From Geothrix paludis (lineage in GTDB: Bacteria > Acidobacteriota > Holophagae > Holophagales > Holophagaceae), in assembly GCF_022808815.1 (NCBI RefSeq), contig NZ_JAKZLC010000001.1:682001-746000 (forward strand): 64,000 nt of DNA, written 5' to 3'. Below the pieces are notes generated by a model. The model was not told where the DNA came from and ran no database searches. It saw only the letters and a program-made list of their open reading frames with translations. The position numbers were made by a program, and so were the translations under genes. Every line of letters starts with the position of its first letter. Position 1 is the first letter of the stretch. Positions 30,649 through 64,000 of the stretch are shown in pieces.

Positions 30649-31944
30649 ATGATGTCCTCCATGGACCTCACCCCCTGGCACCGCCGGCCCTTCCCTCTCC
30701 CCGGGCCCTGGCCCGACTGCGTGCGGGGCCTGCTGGAGCGCGGAGCCGCCTGGCTCCATACCGGCAGCACCGGTGACGGACTCCTCGGCCTGCCGGGGGG
30801 GCCAATCCTGGCCTCCCGGTGGTCGGGCGCCGCCTGGATCAGCCACCTGGAGGGCAGGCCCTGGCCGGGATCCCCATGGGAGGCCATGGAAGCAGCGCTT
30901 CCGGAGCACCCCGGGCCATGGATCGGCGCGGCTTCCTTCGAGCTGGCCTGCGACGAGGCTTCGCTGCCCCGCCAGGGTTGCGCCCCCGGCACCCTGGGTC
31001 AGCATTGGCGGGGCATCCAACAGGCGCTGCACGTCCAGGACGGCGAGGCCGAGCTGTGGTCCTGGGGTGAGGTGCCCCCGGATCCGGAGACCTGGACGTC
31101 CCTTCTCCGCCCGGGAGCCCCTCCCCAGGCCCCGTCCCTGACTCTCCAGGCCCGCTGGACCGAGGCCGAGCACCGGGCCGCCGTGGAAACGATCCGAGAG
31201 CGCATTCTCGAAGGTGGTTTCTATGTGGCCAACCTCTGTGTTCCCTTCGATTCCATCTATCCGGGAGACCCGGTGGACCTGGCCCTGGGGACCTTCAGGC
31301 GGGCCCTCCCGCCCTTCGGCGCCCTGCTGGACCTGGACGGCCTCCGGCTCCTCTCCCTGAGCATGGAGGGGCTTCTGTCCCGCCGTGGGGAGCGGATCTG
31401 GTCCCAGCCCATCAAAGGCAGCGTTCCCCTGACAGGCGATGCGGCGCAGGACCAGCTCGCCGCGGAGGCCCTGGCGGCGGATCCCAAGGAGCGGGCCGAG
31501 CACACGATGATCGTGGACCTGGTGCGCAACGACCTGGGCCGCGTGGCGCGGACCGGCACCGTCACCGTGAGCCGGGCCATGCACGTGGAGCGCTACCCCA
31601 CCGTCCAGCACCTGGTGAGCACGGTGGAGGCCGAAGCCCGTCCAGGGTTGGGCCTGGCCGACCTGCTCCGGTCGGTCCTCCCGGGCGGCAGCGTTACGGG
31701 GGCTCCCAAGCGGGCCGTCTGTGCGCATCTGGCCCAGGCCGAGGCGGGGCCCCGGGGGTTCTACTGCGGGGCCCTCGGGTGGATCGCCTCCATCGGCGAC
31801 CTCGACCTCGCCCTGCCCATCCGGACCGCCCAGATCCGCGGCGACGCCCTCACCTACTGGGCTGGAGGAGGCATCACCCGGCGCAGTGATCCGGCCCGCG
31901 AGTGGGCGGAGCTGTTCCTCAAGACGCGGGCGCTGACGGGGTGA
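30649..31944 (+). CDS. pabB: Aminodeoxychorismate synthase component I
   Basis: A 431-residue chorismate-binding enzyme. It makes 4-amino-4-deoxychorismate for folate, with a PabA-type glutaminase. The C-terminal part shows PIKGS, 'RAEHTMIVDLVRNDLGRVA', 'HVERYPTVQHLVSTVEA', 'LPGGSVTGAPK' and 'FYCGALGWIASIGDLDLALPIRTAQI'. The PIKG lysine separates PabB from anthranilate synthase TrpE (PIAGTR). No pabA or pabC is adjacent. The folP gene is elsewhere in the window at 48514. The start could be any of three ATGs at 30649, 30652 or 30661. Confidence 0.93.
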   Translation: MMSSMDLTPWHRRPFPLPGPWPDCVRGLLERGAAWLHTGSTGDGLLGLPGGPILASRWSGAAWISHLEGRPWPGSPWEAMEAALPEHPGPWIGAASFELACDEASLPRQGCAPGTLGQHWRGIQQALHVQDGEAELWSWGEVPPDPETWTSLLRPGAPPQAPSLTLQARWTEAEHRAAVETIRERILEGGFYVANLCVPFDSIYPGDPVDLALGTFRRALPPFGALLDLDGLRLLSLSMEGLLSRRGERIWSQPIKGSVPLTGDAAQDQLAAEALAADPKERAEHTMIVDLVRNDLGRVARTGTVTVSRAMHVERYPTVQHLVSTVEAEARPGLGLADLLRSVLPGGSVTGAPKRAVCAHLAQAEAGPRGFYCGALGWIASIGDLDLALPIRTAQIRGDALTYWAGGGITRRSDPAREWAELFLKTRALTG

Positions 31945-31974
31945 GCGGGGTGCCAGCTCCGAAAAGGGGAAAGA

Positions 31975-32124
31975 CCTCCACGAAGGACACGAAGAAAAGG
32001 ACTCAAGGGCACGAATGGAGTTCATGCCGGCTCGCCATGCAGAAACCCGGCCGGTGACCCGGGGATTCCCATCCCATTCGTGTCCTTCGAATGCCCGCAG
32101 GGCTCTTCGTGCCCTTCGTGGAGG
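31975..32124. repeat. Heptad-based inverted repeat (CACGAAG family), copy 1
   Basis: The left part (31975-32018) has heptads of the type CACGAAG and GGACACGAAG. The right part (32074-32124) contains their complements, so the outer 20 bases pair at 19 of 20 positions and an inner pair (around CACGAATGG) also matches. The element lies in the 207-base gap between pabB and the HNH gene. It resembles the element at 63621-63709 in heptad style (CACnAAGAAAAG). It carries no open frame and no transposase. Such elements occur dispersed in many bacterial genomes. Confidence 0.75.
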
Positions 32125-32151
32125 CTTTTCAGGACGAAGGGAAAACTCGCC

Positions 32152-32661
32152 TCAGGCGGCGCTGGCCCGCTTCAGCAGCTCTTCGAAGCGCTCGAAGAGG
32201 TGGGCCCGGGGGCCCTTGGGCTGGCGCTTGAGGACCATGCCCGCCTGATCCGGGGTGCGTCCCCCCTTGTTCTGGTTGCAGATGAGACAGCACCCCACCA
32301 GGTTCTGCCAAGTGGTGGAACCGCCCTGGCACAGGGGGACGACGTGATCCACGGTCGTGGCTTTCCGCTGGCAACCTTCGTACTGACAGAGGTAGTGATC
32401 CCGGCGCAGGACGCGCCGCTCCAGCCGCCCGATGAGGAGCTTGGAATCGCTGCAGGCCTGCACGTTCGGAAAGATGATGAGTTCGAGACTCCCCTCCAGG
32501 CTCCGGTGTCGCTCGAAGGTGGCTGGGTTGAGCACGTGGGCGCGGCCCGCCACCACGGCGCAGAGGGCGCGCCTCCGGCTCACTTCCTGCATCGGGACAT
32601 AGTTCCGGTCGACGGCAATCACCTCACCTGCCCCGTGACGTTCCCGGCCCTTCAGCATCAC
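32152..32661 (-). CDS. HNH endonuclease
   Basis: A 169-residue protein with a C-terminal HNH nuclease domain. The zinc-binding CQYEGC is followed by 'VDHVVPLCQGG', 'NLVGCCLICNQNKGGRTP', that is His in DHVVP, Asn in QNLVG and the second CxxC (CLIC), a typical stand-alone HNH. The N-terminus has a small conserved domain ('VIAVDRNYVPMQEVSRRRALCAVVAGRAHVL') found in related HNH proteins of many phyla. It could be a DNA-repair or housekeeping nuclease; no mobile gene is nearby. Confidence 0.93.
   Translation of the reverse strand: MMLKGRERHGAGEVIAVDRNYVPMQEVSRRRALCAVVAGRAHVLNPATFERHRSLEGSLELIIFPNVQACSDSKLLIGRLERRVLRRDHYLCQYEGCQRKATTVDHVVPLCQGGSTTWQNLVGCCLICNQNKGGRTPDQAGMVLKRQPKGPRAHLFERFEELLKRASAA

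Positions 32662-62941: not shown

Positions 62942-64000
<1,059 letters not shown>

Follow-up and report, generated by a model that had tools for sequence, protein, structure and literature searches.

The analysed stretch of DNA (the window, 64 kb from the 3.4 Mb genome of Geothrix paludis) contains a convergent gene pair, a pabB-like gene and a gene for a small HNH protein, whose stop codons are separated by a 207-base gap, and an inverted repeat takes up nearly all of this gap (Table 1). Read directly from the sequence, the outer arms CCTCCACGAAGGACACGAAG (31975-31994) and CTTCGTGCCCTTCGTGGAGG (32105-32124) are complementary at 19/20 positions and lie 108 nt apart. A repeat search lengthens both arms to 27 nt, with 89% pairing, and recovers inner pairings at 31981-31993/32077-32089 and 32005-32018/32074-32087. 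Each arm contains two exact CACGAAG heptads and a third, variant heptad. The original prediction, a large inverted repeat built of CACGAAG heptads in a gap devoid of genes, is thereby confirmed, including the pairing of the inner arms, and no gene was detected inside the gap. Folded as RNA, the repeat reaches -86.7 kcal/mol (z -5.3; 0/200 shuffles reach an equally low energy). The stem is followed by CTTTT, such that the hairpin and T-run that are hallmarks of an intrinsic terminator are present at this copy. The HNH neighbour, a protein of 169 aa, weakly resembles the HNH portion of IscB and Cas9d, with scores under the cut-off.

Table 1. The heptad inverted repeat, its neighbours and the second copy (positions in the 64-kb window).
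Feature	Position	Strand	Basis
pabB-like flanking gene, score under the curated pabB cut-off	30649-31944	+	gene calls, profile score
Entire insert between both stop codons (~200 nt; inverted repeat plus ~20 nt per side)	31945-32151		stop codons nearly abut in 18/22 genomes
Left arm, two CACGAAG heptads (31979-31985, 31988-31994)	31969-31995	+	direct reading, repeat search
Left-arm third heptad CACGAAT, partner 32074-32087	32005-32018	+	repeat search
Right-arm third heptad ATTCGTG	32074-32087	+	repeat search
Small GCCCGCAGGGC hairpin	32093-32103	+	by eye
Right arm, two complementary heptads, then CTTTT	32104-32130	+	direct reading, repeat search
Gene for small HNH protein, flanking	32152-32661	-	gene calls, profile score
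Further copy, built of CACCAAG units (period 8)	63630-63707		inverted repeat found

The repeat belongs to a dispersed family. The pattern CACSAAGN{0,3}CACSAAG has 64 matches in the source genome (36 + 28) and none when reversed as a control, and copies are present in relatives as well, which bears out the dispersal that had been suspected from a copy noted at 63621. That copy is real and has the same architecture, but it is built of CACCAAG units with a period of 8 rather than 9 and so represents another heptad type. The source genome thus has at least two types, CACGAAG (period 9) and CACCAAG (period 8); elements of the former have the ends AAAAGATCTCC...GGAGATCTTTT. Most elements start a few dozen bases or fewer past a stop codon. 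The sequence CACGAAGGNCACGAAG is present in 24/36 other genomes of the genus and in 0/23 genomes outside it, and the exact 24-nt consensus occurs in four stretches among named genomes, all of them Geothrix (G. fermentans, G. campi). A looser pattern is distributed patchily across the phylum (91/149 genomes), with the highest counts in G164 (224), G153 (220) and G057 (121), against control counts of mostly 0-3 and at most 18 (G104). At one locus (L072:2374-2535), a palindrome of the CACGGAAG type abuts half a CACGAAG element, as though one had inserted beside the other.

Comparison of orthologous sites reveals that these elements come and go. The focal site was compared across 30 loci including our own, 22 of which have both flanks. 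The gap measures ~205-207 nt in the source genome, 114 nt in G006 and 34 nt in G018, while it is -13 to 10 nt in 18/22 genomes; G060 has 108 nt of other sequence. Because the stop codons nearly abut in those 18 genomes, ~200 nt must have been inserted at the focal site. The source genome and G006 belong to the lineage that acquired the segment, which has since shrunk; G018, whose gap ends in GGAG..TTTTC and resembles a remnant, probably shares it. When 34 elements of the source genome were surveyed against three relatives (G018, G006 and G015), 26 of the sites had a gap of at most 70 nt in at least one of them. At many sites the absence is precise; 364 nt are missing from all three relatives at L053, and 140 nt are missing at L058. 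Of the three options raised for the repeat beforehand, recombination or mobility is the best supported, given this highly variable presence and absence.

The L058 site was placed in 29/30 loci, of which 15 are filled and 14 are empty, the latter with overlapping ATGA stop and start codons. The inserts, 116-155 nt in length, all sit at this same overlap point and differ in heptad type (CACGAAG, CGCCAAG, CACCAAG and CCACGAAGAC). Filled and empty sites are interleaved on a tree of the flanks (28 rows; G021 and G035 are absent from the tree, and the type labels are automatic and crude, G028 being of mixed type), with a minimum of 10 changes, at least 6 of them forced by supported branches, and a shuffled mean of 9.7. 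The copies in G000, G025, G008 and G009 have locus-specific details in common, so descent followed by repeated precise loss accounts for part of the pattern; independent re-insertion at L058 is possible. Swaps of heptad type between species at a single site are visible by eye at L046, L049, L060, L069, L071, L072 and L077. ATGA stands on both sides of the L058 insert, which could reflect either a target-site duplication or selection for both genes, and no clear duplication was found elsewhere; in several inserts an additional 15-45 nt of flank is present. Inspection by eye of long intergenic fillings at two loci of relatives (L240, L224) revealed no obvious element gene.

The hairpin, the T-run and the location after stop codons raise the alternative of a bidirectional intrinsic terminator that is kept for the host between convergent genes, with a purine-rich 5' arm and an A-tract before and a T-tract after the stem. 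The orientation of the neighboring genes agrees with it in part, as 11 of 32 clean elements lie between convergent genes and 2 between divergent ones, with 14 in ++ and 5 in -- arrangements (automatic gene calls, 41 rows, 9 dropped for overlapping or missing calls); all gaps of the window divide into 20 ++, 14 convergent, 18 -- and 13 divergent. However, the pairing is not conserved between orthologous copies. In 11 copy pairs, 57 base pairs changed on one side and 5 on both sides, with 3 of the latter compensated, and the arms are 89.6% identical, compared with 92.9% for flanks and 83.8% for loops, so that the arms decay slightly faster than the flanks. This one-sided decay makes pairing a property of new copies and not of resident ones. 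Uncompensated decay of the arms is what mobile palindromes should show, and not what maintained terminators or RNAs should. Moreover, there is no clear G-U excess even in co-directional copies of the source genome (G-T 38 vs A-C 33; convergent copies 19 vs 25; L058 14 vs 20), copies occur inside operons at an ATGA overlap, long loops are common (108 nt separate the focal outer arms), and the element is absent from the same gene pair in most relatives. The earlier suggestion of a terminator therefore stands for the hairpin, T-run and position but not for maintained pairing, and we consider a terminator kept for the host unlikely.

A second alternative, a structured noncoding RNA or 3'-UTR element under selection, draws on the very stable folds (z -5 to -9) and on the longer copies. 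In the source genome, five of these (L053, L055, L060, L073 and L075) share a core in which a GGACATCC/GGATGTCC stem encloses three hairpins. An alignment of 40 such structured copies from eight genomes contains double compensatory changes in 22/52 pairs. Selected RNA structures are expected to show G-U mismatches in excess of A-C. In the structured copies the two are equal (G-T 38, A-C 38, with 31 others; 51 pairs, one of the 52 being omitted), compensation is lacking between orthologous copies, and no Rfam family exceeds the gathering score, the 64-kb window giving no hit. A conserved, selected RNA structure, which had been among the initial suggestions, was rejected on mismatch symmetry and decay without compensation, given that pairing is lost after insertion; we regard an RNA under selection as improbable. 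The double changes across the 40 structured copies instead indicate that pairing belongs to the source stage.

The structured core is combined with differing heptads, namely CACGAAG and CGCGAAT in the alignment and, by eye and outside it, the CACGGAAG and CGCAGAG types (L153, L154, L173). The GCCCGCAGGGC hairpin lies between heptads 2 and 3 in structured copies and, by eye, in the right arm of the focal copy, so the latter is a deleted relative that is reversed with respect to the structured-form alignment. A structured copy had no match in plasmid and phage collections. An extra outer inverted repeat, CCTGGTTATCGGCGAGCCTCAGCC...GGCTGAGGCTCGCCGATAACCAGG, is present ~25 nt beyond the heptads at L053, L157, L163, L187 and others.

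Longer palindromes of the family contain a gene. In G008, G032 and G021, CACGAAG arms ~445 nt apart enclose a 127-aa ORF, the ATG of which lies within the third heptad (ATGGACACGAA). The encoded protein is GxxExxY (TIGR04256, 125.1 bits against a curated NCBIfam cut-off of 35) and also matches PF13366, PDDEXK_3 (124.1 against a cut-off of 22), with a PD-(D/E)XK fold. The gene is found in 35/41 genomes of the genus in 1-10 copies. It is under purifying selection, with dN/dS values of 0.03-0.18 (13 pairs), and at least 90% of 33 sequences retain its D...ELK motif. Among 30 loci (one from each genome), inverted repeats flank the gene at 19 with p ≤ 0.02, the controls being windows of the same loci, and 11 miss this threshold. 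The arm types include CACGGAG, CACGAAGAC, CACCAAG, CGCCAAG, CGCGAATGA, CGCGGAG, CACGAA and others, and at below-threshold loci arms of CACAGATTT, CGCAGAG and CCGCAGATG are visible by eye. By coordinates, CACGAAG sites also adjoin GxxExxY genes at G021 C163, G011 C32, G009 C11 and G026 C84.

The association extends beyond the genus: 3/8 plasmid-borne relatives of the gene have significant flanking repeats, in Bacteroides finegoldii (CACAGAGGA), Bernardetia (ACAGAGA type) and Gemmatirosa (GACTGAAGA type). Partial arms are visible by eye beside the plasmid genes of Treponema and Sphingomonas, and the remaining relatives fall below significance. The Sphingomonas gene (L377) lies between fabD and fabG and has left-arm heptads only, of the CGCGAAG type, while a gene on a Fusobacteria plasmid (L376) has copies of ATTTAATCCGTGTACCTAT on its flanks in direct rather than inverted orientation. 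Repeats of GACTGAAGA / TTCAGTCCTCAGTC, which form the inverted arrays around the Gemmatirosa gene (L374), also stand at Geothrix gene ends (L051, L063, L076) and may represent one more heptad type of this kind. No solved structure was found for GxxExxY. The open-licence literature yielded no description of a link between heptad palindromes and this family, and the papers that mention GxxExxY, PF13366 or TIGR04256 deal with other subjects in the parts available to us.

These findings best support the notion that the heptad palindromes constitute the termini of GxxExxY elements, most copies being gene-less derivatives. We thus consider the focal feature to derive, with somewhat better than even probability, from a palindromic and probably mobile GxxExxY element by an internal deletion that removed the gene. 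The elements consist of two inverted arms of tandem 8-10 nt units, each starting with a CRC-type heptad, and were observed in three forms: a short inverted repeat of ~100-170 nt, as at the focal site, a structured form of ~250-340 nt, and a form of ~460 nt with the GxxExxY gene in its loop, starting inside the third heptad. New copies would land as good palindromes, mostly directly past stop codons where they do little harm; resident copies would then decay neutrally, and deletion would often remove them. The larger relatives with the same ends carry GxxExxY only as a candidate mobility enzyme. This protein with a PD-(D/E)XK fold may be the mobility factor, nicking or joining the folded arms, and it may act in trans on the folded DNA palindrome of short copies; it could also be a passenger. 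Its role as the mover is weakened by the lack of clear target duplications and of any observed transposition, by the weak correlation between copy numbers of CACGAAG pairs and GxxExxY genes (rho 0.33, p 0.048; 37 genomes, uncorrected for kinship), and by the 11/30 loci without significant arms. It is weakened further by the source genome itself, where by coordinates none of four GxxExxY genes is near a listed CACSAAG site and the one locus of the four that was read has another repeat type, so the parent of its CACGAAG copies is either lost or acting from another type.

GxxExxY would also be a passenger, of some copies, if replication slippage and template switching made and unmade the palindromes without a dedicated enzyme. 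Some remnants have short direct repeats at their borders (e.g., TCTCCA at L048, by eye), and whole arms share one heptad type, as expected from concerted correction; both observations are consistent with such a process. Yet identical heptad types and the structured core recur at many unrelated loci, and the gene under purifying selection is found recurrently within arms, also outside the genus; we give this account little credence, about as little as the selected RNA. Were the GxxExxY reading to hold, the protein would be the mobility factor of a new class of element, testable in cultured Geothrix fermentans, and the palindromes would represent insertions in decay rather than host terminators or RNAs. 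The finding connects CACNAAG-type intergenic palindromes with the widespread GxxExxY family, both without explanation here. A broader proposal, which we advance tentatively and hold with less confidence than the reading of the focal copy, is that GxxExxY elements may form an undescribed class of mobile DNA in which the loop protein copies the folded palindrome past stop codons. Gene-less derivatives might then account for a large share of the heptad-type intergenic palindromes that lack an explanation in patchily distributed bacteria, with arms and core exchanged as modules and each lineage evolving its own heptad.

Among known systems, REP/REPIN sequences with RAYT are likewise extragenic palindromes in inverted pairs (PMC2817692 and PMC3733652, in the parts available). 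Mobilization by RAYT, a Y1 tyrosine transposase, would be in keeping with the size, palindromy, copy number and extragenic position after genes. A GTAG or CGTC tag at the palindrome foot defines a REPIN; here, by eye, the ends are AAAAGRNCTCC...GGAGRNCTTTT without such tags, and the arms are not small palindromes themselves. Only 5/41 genomes contain Y1_Tnp, and it is missing from all of the element-rich G001, G006, G008, G009, G021, G023 and G025; the rank correlation is 0.00, and the source genome's own Y1_Tnp looks IS200-like by eye and has no tandem-heptad array beside it. RAYT was rejected as a general mover for want of a Y1 transposase in element-rich genomes, and of all the alternatives a REPIN origin is the least probable.

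The heptad/GxxExxY element appears to work most like the intervening sequences (IVS) of 23S rRNA, and like MITEs. Judging from the parts of PMC4990558 available, 23S rRNA IVS are small, selfish palindromic elements with an S23/four-helix-bundle ORF and a hypothesized mobility; in both systems, a terminal inverted repeat forms a stem and the loop holds one small ORF. In contrast to the IVS, the elements described here are outside rRNA genes and intergenic past stop codons, the focal copy lying between two protein genes, and they have GxxExxY as their ORF, tandem-heptad arms and many gene-less copies. With MITEs and ERIC/RU-1, described in the available parts of PMC2229807 and PMC2759123 as non-autonomous, palindromic, intergenic and polymorphic for presence, they share terminal inverted repeats without coding capacity, dispersed copies, and presence or absence at orthologous sites. 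Unlike these, no transposase parent was found here, the long copies carry a nuclease-like gene, and tandem heptads make up the arms, with several heptad types sharing sites and core.
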